From positions 1-15,858 of the forward strand of contig JABIQT010000266.1 in NCBI GenBank assembly GCA_018667995.1: a stretch of DNA of 15,858 nucleotides, given 5' to 3'. Both the position numbers and the translations under genes were made by a program. The stretch comes from Candidatus Latescibacterota bacterium. GTDB lineage: Bacteria > JAAXHH01 > JABIQT01. Below are positions 9,374 through 15,858 of the stretch, in pieces. Each line of letters begins with the position of its first letter. Position 1 is the first letter of the stretch. The notes below the pieces were generated by a model. That model searched no databases. It was not told where the DNA came from and worked only from the letters and a program-made list of their open reading frames with translations.

Positions 9374-10075
9374 TTACCGAGCGTTTGTAACATCAAGCGG
9401 TACCTTCGAAATGGCAATATGCCCGTCAAAGCAGACATCCACATCCCTACCAGACTGACGGGGTCTGGCGTGATAATCACCAGAGTAGGAATAGTGGTCT
9501 CCTTGACGCTCGAATCGTACATCCAGGGGCCCCGAGTCAACATCACAGAATGTGTGAGGGAGGCTTTCACGATCGTGAGTCGGATGAGGTAGATTTACGT
9601 TCCAAAAGTGGTTCTGCGGGAGATCCATTTCCAGGAGCATTTTCAGAATTGGCGTTATCCGCCGCTCTGTCAGCGCCCAATCCAAGGGCCGGTCCCTGAC
9701 TATATAGTGTGAGACCGCCATAGCCCGATACCCAAGTAAAGCCGCTTCACGCGCAGCAGCCACCGTGCCCGACATATAGACATCCACGCCCAAATTGCCA
9801 CCATTATTAATTCCTGCTATTACCCAATCGGCATCGGGGAGGAACTCTCTAAGACCGATTCGTGAACAGTCGGCTGGTGTACCGTGTACGCGGTATCGAT
9901 TAGTGTCATCCGCTGCTACCAGTATGGGATCATAAGCCGTCACCTGATGGCCAATACCCGATTGGGGAAGGGCAGGTGCAACCACAACCAAGTCGCCCAA
10001 TGGTCCTGCCACATTGGCCAGGGAAGCAATGCCCGGAGCGTCGAATCCATCATCATTAGTCACCAGTAACTTCAT
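9374..10075 (-). CDS. surE: 5'/3'-nucleotidase SurE
   Basis: The 233-residue protein begins MKLLVTNDDGFDAPGI, the SurE signature with metal ligands D8 and D9. S39 in LPQSGIGHQ and the Asn-rich loop AGINNGGNLG at 87-96 complete the metal site. 'YRVHGTPADC' at 61-70 and 'MSGTVAAAREAALLG' at 101-115 are likewise conserved. The family releases phosphate from 5' and 3' nucleoside monophosphates and some short polyphosphates in the cytoplasm. The start codon overlaps the stop of the upstream phosphoesterase in an ATGA arrangement (10075-10072), and no strong ribosome site precedes it, so translation is probably coupled. A pairing of two phosphoester-cleaving enzymes suggests consecutive steps on a nucleotide substrate. 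In many bacteria surE lies beside pcm/nlpD/rpoS; none of those is present here. Confidence 0.95.
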   Translation of the reverse strand: MKLLVTNDDGFDAPGIASLANVAGPLGDLVVVAPALPQSGIGHQVTAYDPILVAADDTNRYRVHGTPADCSRIGLREFLPDADWVIAGINNGGNLGVDVYMSGTVAAAREAALLGYRAMAVSHYIVRDRPLDWALTERRITPILKMLLEMDLPQNHFWNVNLPHPTHDRESLPHTFCDVDSGPLDVRFERQGDHYSYSGDYHARPRQSGRDVDVCFDGHIAISKVPLDVTNAR

Positions 10076-10899
10076 GAGGTAATCTCACCGTCAGCGGAAA
10101 TGGATATGGAAGGTTGCTTCCCAAAGCCCTCCAACTCCAGTCGTCCGTCCTCAAAAACAGAGAGTATGGCATAGGCATTCTGATCCAGGCCTGGACCGAC
10201 GACCATGGCCCGCAGACCGATATAGGGAATGCACCCCACGACATTTGCGAGACCGGTGTGATAATGCCCCTGAATTACAGCACGAACCACTCCTGAATCC
10301 TCCAGAAGGGCACGAACCCTGGTCGCGTTCTTCACCACATGGGGATCCAATTGCCCGTTCCACAATCTGCCATCCAGGTTTCCGTGACAGAATACGAGTA
10401 CTTGTTGATCATGGGCGGACGACAACTCGGTGCTGAGCCAGGCGATTTGGGAATCGGAAATCCAGGCATTGTCCCAATCAAAATCACCTTCGGAGAAATC
10501 ACGCCCGTCTCTATGACAGTTGCTGTCAAGGATCACACAGCGCACACCATGGCAGTCAAATGCGTAGTAGGTCTTTTCCGTTGCTGTCCCGCAGCCTGCC
10601 AGGAATTCAGATTTTGTGAGTGTGGCCACGTCGTGATTACCGATGACGAAATGTCGTGAGCCCTGGAAGTGCTCGAAAACACCTCGGATAGTATTGAGAT
10701 TCTCAAGTTCAGTATGCTTGTCTTCGGCCTTGTCGATGAAATCACCCAGGTTGATCACCGTATCAAGACCTCGACTGGAAAAGATCTCAACACACGCTGA
10801 GAGCTTGTGAAGCGAGTCCTCACAGTGCCGATCACCATAGAAAAGATGGGCGAAATGGGGATCAGTGAAGAGTCCGATGGTAGCAATAGGATGGATCAT
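10072..10899 (-). CDS. Calcineurin-like metallophosphoesterase
   Basis: The 275-residue protein shows the complete dimetal site: D13 and H15 (DPHF), D53 (LGDFID), N88 and H89 (IGNHD), H172 (FCHGN), and H212 and H214 (GHYH). The insertion 'ENLNTIRGVFEHFQGSRHF' between the GD and GNHD motifs recalls Mn-dependent ADP-ribose/CDP-alcohol diphosphatase and cyclic-nucleotide phosphodiesterase relatives, so a nucleotide diphosphate or cyclic nucleotide substrate is plausible. There is no signal peptide; it should be cytoplasmic. The ATG at 10899 follows the small membrane protein gene by 27 nt, with no clear Shine-Dalgarno, and the 3' end overlaps surE by 4 nt. The product of a diphosphatase (a nucleoside monophosphate) would be a SurE substrate; this link is inferred from context. 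Confidence 0.92.
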   Translation of the reverse strand: MIHPIATIGLFTDPHFAHLFYGDRHCEDSLHKLSACVEIFSSRGLDTVINLGDFIDKAEDKHTELENLNTIRGVFEHFQGSRHFVIGNHDVATLTKSEFLAGCGTATEKTYYAFDCHGVRCVILDSNCHRDGRDFSEGDFDWDNAWISDSQIAWLSTELSSAHDQQVLVFCHGNLDGRLWNGQLDPHVVKNATRVRALLEDSGVVRAVIQGHYHTGLANVVGCIPYIGLRAMVVGPGLDQNAYAILSVFEDGRLELEGFGKQPSISISADGEITS

Positions 10900-10926: not shown

Positions 10927-11106
10927 CTATTCTTTCGGATCTATAGGGGTGCTTCTCGTACCGACGTCATTGCCACGCGTCAAGCGTGCTCTGATGCTTC
11001 GAAAGAACGGGACTGTGATGATGAATACCAGGCAGATGACAATCCATGCTATGCCGCCGTTGACTCCCTGAATCACACGTGCGACGCGCAGGTTATGGAC
11101 TGGCAT
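10927..11106 (-). CDS. Small single-pass membrane protein, 59 aa
   Basis: ATG 11106-11104 overlaps the stop of the upstream Gfo/Idh/MocA gene by one base (TAATG), and the frame ends at TAG 10929-10927. The 59 residues have a basic N-terminus (R7, R10) and a hydrophobic stretch at about 18-35 (GIAWIVICLVFIITVPFF), long enough for one membrane helix. An Arg-rich segment follows (R36, R39, R41, R44), then a polar tail ending TPIDPKE. Positive charge is greater after the helix, so by the positive-inside rule the tail should be cytoplasmic and the N-terminus outside. The overlap with the preceding stop and the 27-nt distance to the phosphoesterase place it firmly within the operon. The protein is easily missed because of its size. 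No family is recognised; it might tether or regulate a neighbouring enzyme. Confidence 0.75.
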   Translation of the reverse strand: MPVHNLRVARVIQGVNGGIAWIVICLVFIITVPFFRSIRARLTRGNDVGTRSTPIDPKE

Positions 11107-12239
11107 TATCTTCGGGCCTGATTTCTATAACGGGGTGGAATTCTTGGCTCAATCGAGTCGAATAATATAGAAGAATCTACGTCTTTTGTCAACGGCAGAT
11201 TGATCTCTCGATGCTCGATCGCTGAGAGGTAAGCAGCGCAGATTACCTCCATAACCGCTCGGCCAGATGGCCCGTCAGTAGTCGGTCGGTTGCCCTTGCG
11301 TACACACGATGTAAAATGATCGAGTTCCACCTTGTACTGACCAAATATACGACCTTCTTCGAGCCAGTTCCGGCTAAAACTGGGACTGATATTCTCACGC
11401 GTTCTACCATATCTGTGCAGATAGGCTTCATAGGGTGTCGTGTGCTGCCACACTCCGGAGGCGTGCCGTAGCTCGATCGACCCAGTTTCACCAAATATCT
11501 CGTAGTGCTCTTCATTCTCTCTATGCAAGAATTTGGTCGACTGGTGTACGCTGCGGACACCAGATTGATGGGTACAGATCACGTTGTACTCGTTCTCCAC
11601 ATCATAATTGGGTTCGGTTATGTCAAAAGTAGCCATGACGGAACGAATTGGCCCCGCCCACCAATGGGCCAGATCCACGCTGTGGGATCCATGATCCTGC
11701 CACTGCCCCCCCAATGTCTCGCGACGGCCACGCCATTGATCGGCGAAGCTCGCCTGTTCGTTTCCACCCCAATCCCAGTTGTGCCGAATGCCCATAACCT
11801 GACCGATCGCTCCGTTGGACAACAATGTATCCACCGCCAGCATGGTCCGATTAAATCGCTTCATAAAGGCCATCATCAAGATCGTATCGGCAGATTCGTG
11901 CGCCGAGATAATCGCCTCGCACTCACTCAGATTTCTGGCCATAGGCTTCTCGAGAAGCACATGGATGCCCTTCTTAGCACAAGTTATAGCCAGATCCTGG
12001 TGCATGAATACTGGGGCGGCGATGAGAGCAGCGTCTATGGATTCCTTCTCAAGACACTCCTCCAGCGTCGTGTACCCCGCTGTAATTCCGTAGGTGTCAC
12101 ACGCCAAAGCAAGAGCCGTAGCGCTGGGATCCACTGCAGCGACAACGTCTAGTCCATCGATGAAGGGCAGCACTGGACCGAAACTCACAGTGAGACAGTT
12201 GCCACAGCCAACAAAGGCCAGCTTGACACGATCAGGCAT
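11106..12239 (-). CDS. Gfo/Idh/MocA-family oxidoreductase
   Basis: The 377-residue, full-length protein has 'LAFVGCGNC' at 7-15 (Rossmann turn, with Cys replacing the last Gly), 'VVAAVDPSA' at 32-40 (acidic residue for NAD ribose), 'VLLEKPMA' at 94-101 (E-K-P lysine), and 'QDHGSHSVDLAHWW' at 181-194 (C-terminal-domain substrate residues). No signal peptide is present. It should oxidise or reduce a sugar, inositol or glycoside-like compound with NAD(P). AAGGA lies 7 nt before ATG 12239 and overlaps the stop of the FHA gene, from which it is 9 nt apart. Its own stop is fused to the start of the small membrane protein. It is not a close copy of the partial family member at 1-384. Co-transcription with an FHA protein is unusual for this enzyme class. 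Confidence 0.94.
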   Translation of the reverse strand: MPDRVKLAFVGCGNCLTVSFGPVLPFIDGLDVVAAVDPSATALALACDTYGITAGYTTLEECLEKESIDAALIAAPVFMHQDLAITCAKKGIHVLLEKPMARNLSECEAIISAHESADTILMMAFMKRFNRTMLAVDTLLSNGAIGQVMGIRHNWDWGGNEQASFADQWRGRRETLGGQWQDHGSHSVDLAHWWAGPIRSVMATFDITEPNYDVENEYNVICTHQSGVRSVHQSTKFLHRENEEHYEIFGETGSIELRHASGVWQHTTPYEAYLHRYGRTRENISPSFSRNWLEEGRIFGQYKVELDHFTSCVRKGNRPTTDGPSGRAVMEVICAAYLSAIEHREINLPLTKDVDSSILFDSIEPRIPPRYRNQARR

Positions 12240-12248
12240 GGTTGATCC

Positions 12249-12851
12249 TTAGAGCATGAAAAGCATGGCCACCCGCCCAAGACGGATCTCGTCACCTGCA
12301 ACCAACGGACGAGCTGCGGAGGGTTCCTGCTTCTCTTTGTTGACCAAGGTATAGTTCGTGCTATTCAAATCCTCAATGCTGTATTGGCCCGCAGATTCGA
12401 TCAGTTTAGCATGCTTTCTTGAAACCCCACCCTCCAACCCACCGAAAGGCGTAGTATCGATGTCTGGGAAGATATTGCTGATCGGATCCTCGCGACCAAT
12501 GACCATCTCGGGTTTGGTAAGAGGTATTTTGTCGCCCGTCGTAACCACTACGAGATATGGCCCCTCGAGCTGCTCCCCGTCGTCAGCGACTTCTACCAAT
12601 TCATCGGCAACATCTGAGGCATTCTCATCGGTGGAGACATCTGCGTCCAAATCCTCGCCCACCTCAAGCTCGATGGCGTCTCCTGATTGGTCATCCGAAA
12701 CCTCAGCAGCATCCGATGTAGAAGCAGGGGTCTCCTCCACTTCGGCATCGGCTTCATGTTTTACTTCAACGGCTGTCAAATCCACACCGCAGTCCTTGCA
12801 GTATTCGACTACATCTTCGTTCTCGGTATTGCAGTCGGGACATACTTTCAT
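12249..12851 (-). CDS. Zinc-ribbon plus FHA-domain protein
   Basis: The 200-residue protein has three parts. A short zinc ribbon has four cysteines (C4, C7, C18, C21 in CPDC and CKDC). A strongly acidic, low-complexity linker of Asp, Glu, Ala, Ser and Val spans about 31-95. A C-terminal forkhead-associated domain spans about 98-200, with MVIGRED (G119, R120), GGVSRKHAKL (S144, R145, H147) and LNSTNYT (N163-N166), the usual phosphothreonine-binding residues. FHA domains read phosphothreonine signals from Ser/Thr kinases; no kinase is in the window. No membrane segment is seen. A strong GAGGAGAGG site precedes ATG 12851. It is 62 nt after the VWA gene and 9 nt before the Gfo/Idh/MocA gene. The likely job is an adaptor that docks phosphorylated partners; the partner is unknown. 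Confidence 0.93.
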   Translation of the reverse strand: MKVCPDCNTENEDVVEYCKDCGVDLTAVEVKHEADAEVEETPASTSDAAEVSDDQSGDAIELEVGEDLDADVSTDENASDVADELVEVADDGEQLEGPYLVVVTTGDKIPLTKPEMVIGREDPISNIFPDIDTTPFGGLEGGVSRKHAKLIESAGQYSIEDLNSTNYTLVNKEKQEPSAARPLVAGDEIRLGRVAMLFML

Positions 12852-12913
12852 GGGTCACCTCTCCTCTTCGATTTGGTCCCTGAAAATCAGAACCTATCCA
12901 TCGGACAATGCTC

Positions 12914-14173
12914 CTAGCCTTCTTCGCTCAGTCTCTGCGTCAATTTCCGAGTACCATACTGAAGCTTCTTTGTTCCAGTCGACGACATCTCGCCCTGATT
13001 TTCAAGATTATCTGCCTCTTCCGATGCTGCGGCGGCGAGCTCATTTTCGCCCATATCAAGCAAATGTGTCGCGGCTTCTCTGAGCTTTACAGTGGCGACG
13101 TCGAGTTTCCCAGTAGCCAGCGCCTCTCGCGCCTCCAATTGAAGTTGGAAGGCTGTCACACGTTCAATGATATTCATCACCGCCCCCTCACGCGTCCGAG
13201 TCTCTTCCTTATTGTCAGACGTTTGGATGATAATATCAGATGTTACAGACTCACTGACGGGCGCCTCTCCAGGCACCGTGTAGGCTATCTCAGCCTGGGC
13301 TATTCGATAGCGGCCGGCAGGCCGTGCCGGCAGCCCTAGTTCGAGCAAGAGAGTTTGACCATTCTGTTTGTCGACAGTTCCCAATTCAACAGAAATATCG
13401 CGATCTGACGAAGCTGTGTGACTCAGATCAATAATATCTGGAATGACACGGTAAATTCTACGTGGCGTCACTCCTTTGCTTAAGTGGATGGATGCACTGG
13501 TTCCCTGGATTGCCACATTCTGCAGCAGATACAGCTCGTCCTCAAAATTCGAGATGATCTTCTCGGGCGAATCCACATAATCGGCCCGACCAGAAGAGTT
13601 GCGGGCTATTGCATCCAGAAGCGTCTCATTCCAGTCCTCACCGACACCCAATGCGGTAATGGTTATGTCGCTCAGCTGACACTCTGAAGCGAGATGCTTG
13701 CAGTCGGCTTCATCTTCCCACGTCTGCCCGTCGGTCAGTAGCAGCATGCGGCTGGTTCGCGTAGGCCCTGTGTGCTTGCGCAATTCGTCCAGACCATCCT
13801 GCATACCCTTGGACATCGATGTTCCACCCTCAGCCTGCAGCGACCCTATTCGCGCCTTGAGTCGCTCAATATCCTGGATATTCTGGGCAGGTAAAGCAAC
13901 GAGAGACCTCTCATTGAAAAGAACCAGAGAAATGTAATCGTCAGGACCAAGACGATCCAATATCTGTGCTACAGCCTTCTTCACGCTATCTATCTTTTCA
14001 CCGGTCATCGATCCACTTCGGTCGACGACGAGGCAAAGATTCACCGGCGTTCGCGTGAACGATTCGATCTCCGCCGGTCGAATTTCCAGTAAAACGTGGA
14101 CGGCCTGATCAGATCCTGTTACCGGGTACAAAGGTCTGTCTGTCTGGCATTGGAGTGATACGTCTCCCGCCAT
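12914..14173 (-). CDS. von Willebrand factor type A (VWA) domain protein
   Basis: The 419-residue protein has a VWA domain at about 44-215 with an intact metal-ion-dependent adhesion site: D51, S53 and S55 in VVDRSGSM, T118 in EGGTSMSKG, and D148 in LLLTDGQT. A short beta segment precedes it. A beta-rich region at about 225-330 follows, then a largely helical C-terminus (about 335-419) rich in Ala, Glu and Leu that may form coiled coil. There is no signal peptide or transmembrane helix, so it is probably cytoplasmic, unlike secreted VWA adhesins. A GGAGG site lies before ATG 14173. VWA and FHA neighbours occur together in Ser/Thr-kinase-linked and stress-response clusters. The upstream PPC gene ends 105 nt earlier. 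The function here is likely metal-dependent protein binding in a signalling assembly, inferred from domains and neighbours. Confidence 0.93.
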   Translation of the reverse strand: MAGDVSLQCQTDRPLYPVTGSDQAVHVLLEIRPAEIESFTRTPVNLCLVVDRSGSMTGEKIDSVKKAVAQILDRLGPDDYISLVLFNERSLVALPAQNIQDIERLKARIGSLQAEGGTSMSKGMQDGLDELRKHTGPTRTSRMLLLTDGQTWEDEADCKHLASECQLSDITITALGVGEDWNETLLDAIARNSSGRADYVDSPEKIISNFEDELYLLQNVAIQGTSASIHLSKGVTPRRIYRVIPDIIDLSHTASSDRDISVELGTVDKQNGQTLLLELGLPARPAGRYRIAQAEIAYTVPGEAPVSESVTSDIIIQTSDNKEETRTREGAVMNIIERVTAFQLQLEAREALATGKLDVATVKLREAATHLLDMGENELAAAASEEADNLENQGEMSSTGTKKLQYGTRKLTQRLSEEG

Positions 14174-14255
14174 GCGCTTCCTCCGTTAATTGGTGGTTCT
14201 ATGCGGCATGTGAGTGCGGGCGACATGCGCAGGAGACGTACCTGTCAAGTCGCCC

Positions 14256-14276
14256 TCCGGTGCACCAATCACCGGA
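14256..14276. repeat. Short inverted repeat between PPC and VWA genes
   Basis: TCCGGTG (14256-14262) and CACCGGA (14270-14276) form a 7-bp perfect stem with a 7-nt loop, just downstream of the PPC gene stop codon on the minus strand. No run of T follows, so an intrinsic terminator is doubtful. It might attenuate readthrough, protect the 3' end, or bind a regulator of the VWA gene. Confidence 0.3.
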
Positions 14277-14278
14277 CA

Positions 14279-15858
14279 CTATTCATTCTTCTGCGTAAAC
14301 GACGCAGCTACCCTGTATTTGCTTTCATCTCCGGCACCATGGGCATATATCTCAACATAATACCAACCTTCTTCTTCAACATCTACCGATACGATTTCAC
14401 GACTGTTCTGGTTGGAGGAGGAACCGTCCACAAGGGTGCTGTCACCATTGGTATACACATTCAAGTTCAGATCAGCCATGAACTTGTCCGTTTCCAATTC
14501 CAGGATCAGCGTACCCGGCCCGGGGGTCTCAACCTTCCACCAATCCGTCTTATCGCCATCGTCAAAGTTTACACTGTTCCTGGCAGACCTGCCTACACTT
14601 AGCTCCCGGGCGCCCGTTGCCGTACGATCGAGTCCGGAATTCGCATTGGGAGCGACCGAAAACCAGGTGCTCAGCTGATAGGCACTAGCGTCACCTTCTG
14701 CCTCTGCGTACACCTTGACAAGATATGTCCCACGATCCGACAATTCCCAGGATAGCTCCTCCCTGCCAGCAGCTGTGGTAGACTGCTCGAGCAGTTTCTC
14801 CGCCTCACTGTCATACACTTCCAGTTGAAGATCTGCTGAGGCCTTTCGGCCGCTTAAAGTTATAGTCAACTGACCAGGTCCAGGAACGGATACACGCCAC
14901 CAATCAGTTTTATCACCACGATCGTAATCAAGTGACTCTCGCACGCCATCGTTTAGGGGCAGGGGATTAGCTCCGGATGCAGTCGCATTCGGTCCCGAAT
15001 TGGCATCGGGATCCAATGAAAATGAGGAAAATAGACGATAATCACTGCCCTCAGAATCACCAACAACAGCCACTGTCAGATAATAGGCAGCTCCGGCAGC
15101 TCCGTCGATACGGCCCTCCTCGTCACCGTCAAGCGTCAATAGCGCCACTTTCTCGTCCAAGGCTAAGCCATCGCCCACGTCGCCTGCTCGAAACACCTGA
15201 AGACGAACATCCTCGGCGTCATCTGCCTCGAACTGTATCGCCATTTTTCCGGACGCAGGCATCTCCACACGCCACCAGTCCGTGAGATCTCCCTCATCTA
15301 TGGAGACGGAGTCATCGACCCTCTTCTGGAAAGCTAGCCTTCTGGCACCATCAGGTCGTTGATCAGGTCCTGAAAAGATCTCAAGGTCCTCTTTGAACCT
15401 GGCAAGAACGGTATAGGGGATATGCACCTGACTATCCTGGGCGAAAACCTTGACCAGGTAGTCCTCGCCACCAAGTACAGCCAACTGGAGGCGTTCCCGG
15501 GCATCATAGAATGTCTCAACCGGGTTCTCGTCCTCATCATAGAGCCCTAAATATGGAGGAGCGAGGTTGCTCGGAGCGGCCAATTCTATCGTCACGGTCC
15601 CCGTATGGGTCGGTTGAATGCGCCACCAGGTCAAACCAATTCCCCTGGTTACGTTCAGCCGTGCCTGGGTTACTGTGTCAAGCTCCAGGTCGGGTGCATC
15701 GTCGGATTCCGGGTAGTTGGGAAAGTCAGCGGTCTCTTCTGGAGGTTCGACCAAGGCATCCATAGTTGGTCCCGCGAACAGGGGCAGCGAGTCCGGGAGT
15801 TGCGCGCCGGTGTGACTAGCCTCTATCGTGTATCTGGCATCATCCCAAATCCGGGGTG
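14279..15858 (-). CDS. Tandem PPC-like beta-domain protein, 5' end beyond window
   Basis: The frame stays open from the window edge to TAG 14281-14279, giving at least 525 residues. The ATG at 15763 looks like an internal methionine: 31 in-frame codons precede it without a stop, and they read like the end of another repeat (ARYTIEAS, compare KYRVAASF at the C-terminus). Four PPC-like (pre-peptidase C-terminal) beta-sandwich units follow, each with a 'TDWWRV'-type strand; the Trp pairs fall 117, 125 and 120 residues apart. Each unit also has a 'Y.V.V.A...D.S.Y.L' C-terminal strand pair. Composition is very acidic. PPC domains are usually on secreted or surface proteins; the signal region is not in view, so export is a guess. 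No enzyme domain is seen in the visible part. It lies 105 nt upstream of the VWA gene on the same strand. Confidence 0.85.
   Translation of the reverse strand, partial: PRIWDDARYTIEASHTGAQLPDSLPLFAGPTMDALVEPPEETADFPNYPESDDAPDLELDTVTQARLNVTRGIGLTWWRIQPTHTGTVTIELAAPSNLAPPYLGLYDEDENPVETFYDARERLQLAVLGGEDYLVKVFAQDSQVHIPYTVLARFKEDLEIFSGPDQRPDGARRLAFQKRVDDSVSIDEGDLTDWWRVEMPASGKMAIQFEADDAEDVRLQVFRAGDVGDGLALDEKVALLTLDGDEEGRIDGAAGAAYYLTVAVVGDSEGSDYRLFSSFSLDPDANSGPNATASGANPLPLNDGVRESLDYDRGDKTDWWRVSVPGPGQLTITLSGRKASADLQLEVYDSEAEKLLEQSTTAAGREELSWELSDRGTYLVKVYAEAEGDASAYQLSTWFSVAPNANSGLDRTATGARELSVGRSARNSVNFDDGDKTDWWKVETPGPGTLILELETDKFMADLNLNVYTNGDSTLVDGSSSNQNSREIVSVDVEEEGWYYVEIYAHGAGDESKYRVAASFTQKNE
14536..15640 (-). 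repeat. Four degenerate DNA repeats encoding the Trp-Trp strand of each PPC unit
   Basis: On the plus strand, related blocks of the form C-x-CCACCA followed by variable bases occur near 14536, 14895, 15271 and 15621, i.e. every about 350-376 bases. They encode the W-W-R/K-V/I core of each PPC unit. Three of the four share the preceding Gly-Asp-x-Thr-Asp, while the most N-terminal one (GLTWWRI) has diverged. This fits old tandem duplication of a single beta domain. Confidence 0.7.

Follow-up and report, generated by a model that had tools for sequence, protein, structure and literature searches.

Conserved single-pass microproteins are usually accessory or regulatory subunits, and PspB is a small protein that crosses the membrane once. 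Small stress-related single-pass proteins such as YohP have been described in E. coli (PMC12719787). At the level of gene organization, short gene overlaps couple translation, and genes for the subunits of heteromeric complexes show an excess of −1 and −4 overlaps (PMC10666635). Here, we analysed a 15,858-nucleotide stretch of DNA from a Candidatus Latescibacterota bacterium (hereafter the window). A preliminary description had pointed out a 59-aa membrane protein in it, whose gene is joined by a TAATG junction to a Gfo/Idh/MocA gene, and had proposed that the protein anchors or regulates either this oxidoreductase or the phosphoesterase encoded on its other side. We found the small gene to be more widespread and more independent than was then supposed: it belongs to the core genes of a small bacterial phylum, where it occurs in single copy, and its coding sequence is conserved and under selection.

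The small gene (10927..11106, minus strand) is a complete ORF that runs from an ATG at 11106 over 59 codons to a TAG ending at 10927, and its product (MPVHNLRVARVIQGVNGGIAWIVICLVFIITVPFFRSIRARLTRGNDVGTRSTPIDPKE) contains a single strong hydrophobic segment (residues 17–35, mean Kyte-Doolittle value 2.5). AlphaFold, run on 16 homologues, likewise returned a single helix (residues 4–49, mean pLDDT 73, pTM 0.36), in keeping with the one hydrophobic helix noted before. Four arginines fall within the 15 residues C-terminal to the segment and two lie N-terminal to it. Of the Arg-rich cytoplasmic side claimed earlier, the arginine cluster thus stands for the window protein, but its cytoplasmic location is not established, the two helix flanks being about equally positive in the relatives. 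Ahead of the helix, the homologues have in common the motif N-L-R-x-A-R-x-I-Q-x-x-[SN]-G, and P-x-x-R follows the helix; R10, I12, Q13, G17 and P33 are invariant, N5, L6, A9 and R36 nearly so, and the tail, which in genus g3 contains many Ser, Pro and Gly residues, varies in length. Judging from these sequences, the gene is predicted to encode a single-pass inner-membrane protein made up of a basic N-terminal helix (NLRxARxIQ), a transmembrane helix, the P-x-x-R element and a variable, disordered tail. With fewer than 100 aa, one predicted transmembrane helix, conservation and purifying selection, it would belong to the general kind of the single-pass membrane microproteins.

A tblastn search with the window protein, one of the checks suggested at the outset, recovered homologues (E 7e-7 to 0.04) from almost every genome sampled in its order, and a profile search placed the small gene in 16/16 phylum genomes from three families (E 5e-17 to 2e-36), essentially as one copy per genome; 12 of these 16 genomes represent a single genus (g3), so that the number overstates how much independent evidence there is. 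Outside the phylum, none of 368 genomes held a credible homologue in a search that scored the best candidates per genome and that a rare, distant homologue could escape. One outside match, in G287 (E 6.6e-5), was attributed to chance: it covered the C-terminal half only, lacked NLRxARxIQ and lay in a frame with upstream stops. Pfam, NCBIfam and PDB sequences offered no credible match to the small protein, and nothing was found in the literature on such a family. DUF5433 (PF17498) scored at chance level (14.4 bits, E 0.046 for the window protein, against a cut-off of 27 bits; 0/15 of the other homologues), and the PspB model (PF06667) matched none of the 16 homologues, with no protein above its 25.6-bit cut-off in the 16 phylum genomes and none at the locus. 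Purifying selection, which the preliminary description had named as a further check, was borne out: over the 36–37-codon core in 12 g3 species, pooled pN/pS was 0.34 in the coding frame, whereas the five alternative frames gave 1.05, 1.90, 1.38, 0.49 and 3.01. Constraint on the tail is weak in this genus (pN/pS 0.74), and none of the 12 sequences has an in-frame stop.

The junction (11104..11108, minus strand) reads ...CGA AGA TAATG CCA..., with the TAA of the upstream gene (11108–11106) and the ATG of the small gene (11106–11104) sharing one base, as had been stated. This upstream gene, referred to here as idh (11106..12239, minus strand), encodes a Gfo/Idh/MocA-type oxidoreductase of 377 aa with PF01408, PF22725 and PF02894 above cut-off. 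By our own estimate, a 59-codon ORF would begin at a TAATG junction by chance at about 0.5% of gene ends, which is only mildly unlikely. The junction is unique to the window; in relatives, the two genes are some 145–160 bp apart (162 nt in G013, about 145 nt in G011) or a different gene lies upstream. Hence, of the earlier argument that such coupling is rarely chance, the reality of the gene holds up on the grounds of conservation and selection, but the overlap is not conserved. The Idh orthologue is present in 4/16 phylum genomes and missing from all 12 g3 genomes, which have kept the small gene. That of G011 is interrupted by an in-frame TAA at roughly three quarters of its length (L033 near 2627–2629), after which homology resumes, next to an intact small gene; this is either a nonsense mutation or an assembly error. 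The Idh proteins all terminate at the same place (PRIPPRY), and the window arrangement is therefore best read as the loss of a spacer: the window lineage would have lost the interval between idh and the small gene, which produced the TAATG overlap and left a promoter lying inside the 3' end of idh. As a signal of partnership with idh, the overlap has no backing from conservation; it is a local accident.

A putative promoter of the form TTGACA-17 nt-TANNNT precedes the start codon by 86–107 bp in 15/16 phylum genomes. In G001, where a second Gfo/Idh/MocA gene intervenes, no promoter was found directly before the small gene. The promoter-like sequence of the window, TTGACA-17-TATATT (11164..11192, minus strand, −86 from the ATG of the small gene), lies within the last idh codons and is the only strict TTGACA-N16-18-TANNNT match in 15.8 kb, where 0.18 would be expected; across the window and the loci of 14 relatives (10–19 kb each) taken together, the strict pattern has only five occurrences besides those before the small gene. 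Across this stretch, the Idh residues are LTKDVDSSILF versus, for example, ADPDFDYESFF in relatives, and the TTA codon used there makes up 4% of nearby Leu codons. The departed residues and the rare codon would fit selection on DNA rather than protein; the window promoter could still be a coincidence. Considered over the phylum, the small gene keeps its own predicted promoter of the sigma-70 type, whatever gene is upstream.

In g3, G011 and G013 (14 genomes), a 10-bp hairpin stands at the very start of the predicted transcript and is followed by a run of T, of which G012 and G010 have only three or four. Across the 14 sequences, 94% of cells pair and 4/10 pairs are changed on both sides; when the partner strand was slid by 1–3 columns as a control, pairing fell to 21–51%. 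A covariance model of this leader gave strong matches only upstream of the small gene in g3, g4 and g5 genomes (E 3e-11 to 1e-23), where it was also the only gene reached at E < 0.01, the next-best match being 0.03 or worse. By the same model, the full leader is absent from the window, which has no hairpin, and from G001. Rfam held no match to either of the two leader-bearing loci searched. At L038:7667–7740 (+), and at the equivalent positions of 14 genomes, the promoter is followed within a few bases by the terminator-like hairpin and U-tract. Such a leader may insulate the small gene from upstream transcription, stabilise its mRNA or attenuate. It is conceivable, if rather improbable, that promoter and hairpin form a dedicated attenuator, at which most transcripts would terminate near +36 to +41. 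Read-through would then depend on some cellular signal or on the membrane protein, and would in turn control a phylum-specific membrane regulator (together with SurE in g3).

On its 3' side in the window, the small gene is followed after 27 nt by the gene of a putative calcineurin-like phosphoesterase of 275 aa (10072..10899, minus strand; PF12850, E 1.5e-4, below the Pfam cut-off), and this overlaps by 4 nt with a gene for a SurE-family nucleotidase of 233 aa (9374..10075, minus strand; PF01975, E 2.9e-46). Tree and identities mark this SurE as the orthologue of the one directly 3' of the small gene in g3 and of one G001 SurE. A second, distinct SurE type (∼32% identical) occurs in the window genome (G000:C950:1320–1880) as well as in G001 and G013. 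Upstream, a gene for a zinc-ribbon and FHA protein (12249..12851, minus strand; PF00498) ends 9 nt before idh, and it also precedes idh in G011, G013 and G001. It is part of a signalling cassette comprising PP2C phosphatase, protein kinase with PPC domain, VWA, zinc-ribbon/FHA and Gfo/Idh/MocA genes (12249–15858 in the window, L044:8593–16457), which was seen upstream in four genera (the window, G011, G013 and G001, the visible part depending on contig extent) and is missing there in the 12-species g3. In g3, the small gene sits between a PspC-domain gene and surE; still farther upstream are genes for an ECF sigma factor, a zf-HC2 protein and another small membrane protein. Since G013 has both the cassette and the end with the sigma factor and PspC genes, the cassette was presumably either lost from g3 or acquired by the other genomes.

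Which of these neighbours, if any, the small protein works with can be judged from their distribution. The one-base overlap in the window, the second Gfo/Idh/MocA gene ending 1–4 nt before the small gene in G001 and the enrichment of −1/−4 overlaps among heteromeric-complex genes (PMC10666635) would all suit a protein that anchors or regulates the oxidoreductase, with stoichiometry fixed by the TAATG overlap. Presence and absence across the phylum already go most of the way to refuting this proposal, and we consider it very unlikely: 12/16 genomes retain the small gene without an Idh orthologue, 145–160 bp with promoter and hairpin separate the two genes in G011 and G013, and the G011 idh has its in-frame stop beside an intact small gene, which normally has a promoter of its own. 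The phosphoesterase fares no better, its orthologue being present in 2/16 genomes (the window genome and G013, there on a different contig) and adjoining the small gene in the window only. Because the orthologues occur in 4/16 and 2/16 genomes and the small gene in 16/16, neither enzyme can be an obligate partner, and the small protein is, on these gene distributions, probably not a dedicated partner of either. That the ORF is nonetheless a real gene follows from its homologues in all 16 sampled phylum genomes and from codon-level purifying selection, not from the junction; a chance ORF, for which shortness and the ease of a one-base overlap with a stop might speak, is refuted by the same evidence and can for practical purposes be set aside. 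A small hydrophobic toxin of a type I toxin-antitoxin system, held down by a structured leader, would account for the consensus promoter, the structured 5' leader and the small one-helix product. Yet the gene is universal, single-copy and under purifying selection, unlike the patchy toxins, and no strict promoter was found antisense over it, which makes such a toxin highly improbable.

SurE is the best local candidate for a partner, in one genus. In 12/12 g3 genomes, surE lies directly downstream of the small gene after a 6-nt gap or, in G015, with a stop/start overlap, so that the two would be co-expressed and probably translationally coupled there, and the window has its orthologous SurE gene two genes downstream of the small gene, both in one closely spaced series. 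That the small protein tethers this nucleotidase/phosphatase to the membrane or regulates it seems unlikely all the same, since SurE is not near the small gene in G011, G013 or G001, the g3 cases come from one genus, and other bacteria have SurE (10/14 controls) without the small protein, of which no credible homologue was found outside the phylum. Less probable still is a PspB-like role in an envelope-stress response together with the upstream sigma factor, zf-HC2 anti-sigma factor and PspC. The region does carry, in g3 and G013, genes for an ECF sigma factor, for a zf-HC2 protein, for another small protein of the membrane and for a protein with a PspC domain, and PspB shares small size and a single membrane passage. 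However, the PspB model misses the small protein and finds nothing above cut-off in the phylum; a sigma-70-type promoter and a hairpin stand between the small gene and the PspC-domain gene; and the latter is directly upstream in g3 only, being ∼8 kb away in G013 and separated or off the contig elsewhere.

To the explanation that we favour, we would give an even chance: the small gene would encode a phylum-core single-pass microprotein, expressed from its own promoter with a conserved leader, that acts as a subunit, accessory or regulatory, of an envelope complex whose genes lie elsewhere in the genome. Most likely, the small protein would use its conserved R-x-I-Q / G / P-x-x-R surface to bind this larger complex; the step to an accessory subunit is suggested by what conserved single-pass microproteins usually do. 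The locus contributes an unannotated membrane microprotein that is found throughout the phylum, has a clear sequence motif and comes with a dedicated regulatory leader. It also illustrates that two genes overlapping in one genome can hint at a partnership that the phyletic record rejects. Motif, leader and species list make the function testable, at least through heterologous expression.

Compared with described systems, the small protein resembles PspB in being a small single-pass membrane protein, and in genus g3 its gene lies near a PspC-domain gene. It differs from PspB in that there is no sequence match, in that its gene has a predicted promoter of its own as opposed to a place in a psp operon, and in that it is modelled as one helix with a disordered tail. 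With the small stress-related single-pass membrane proteins of E. coli like YohP (PMC12719787), it has in common that it is a microprotein without a catalytic domain; no sequence relationship to these was seen, and its gene differs in belonging to the core set of a whole phylum and in having a conserved promoter-hairpin leader.
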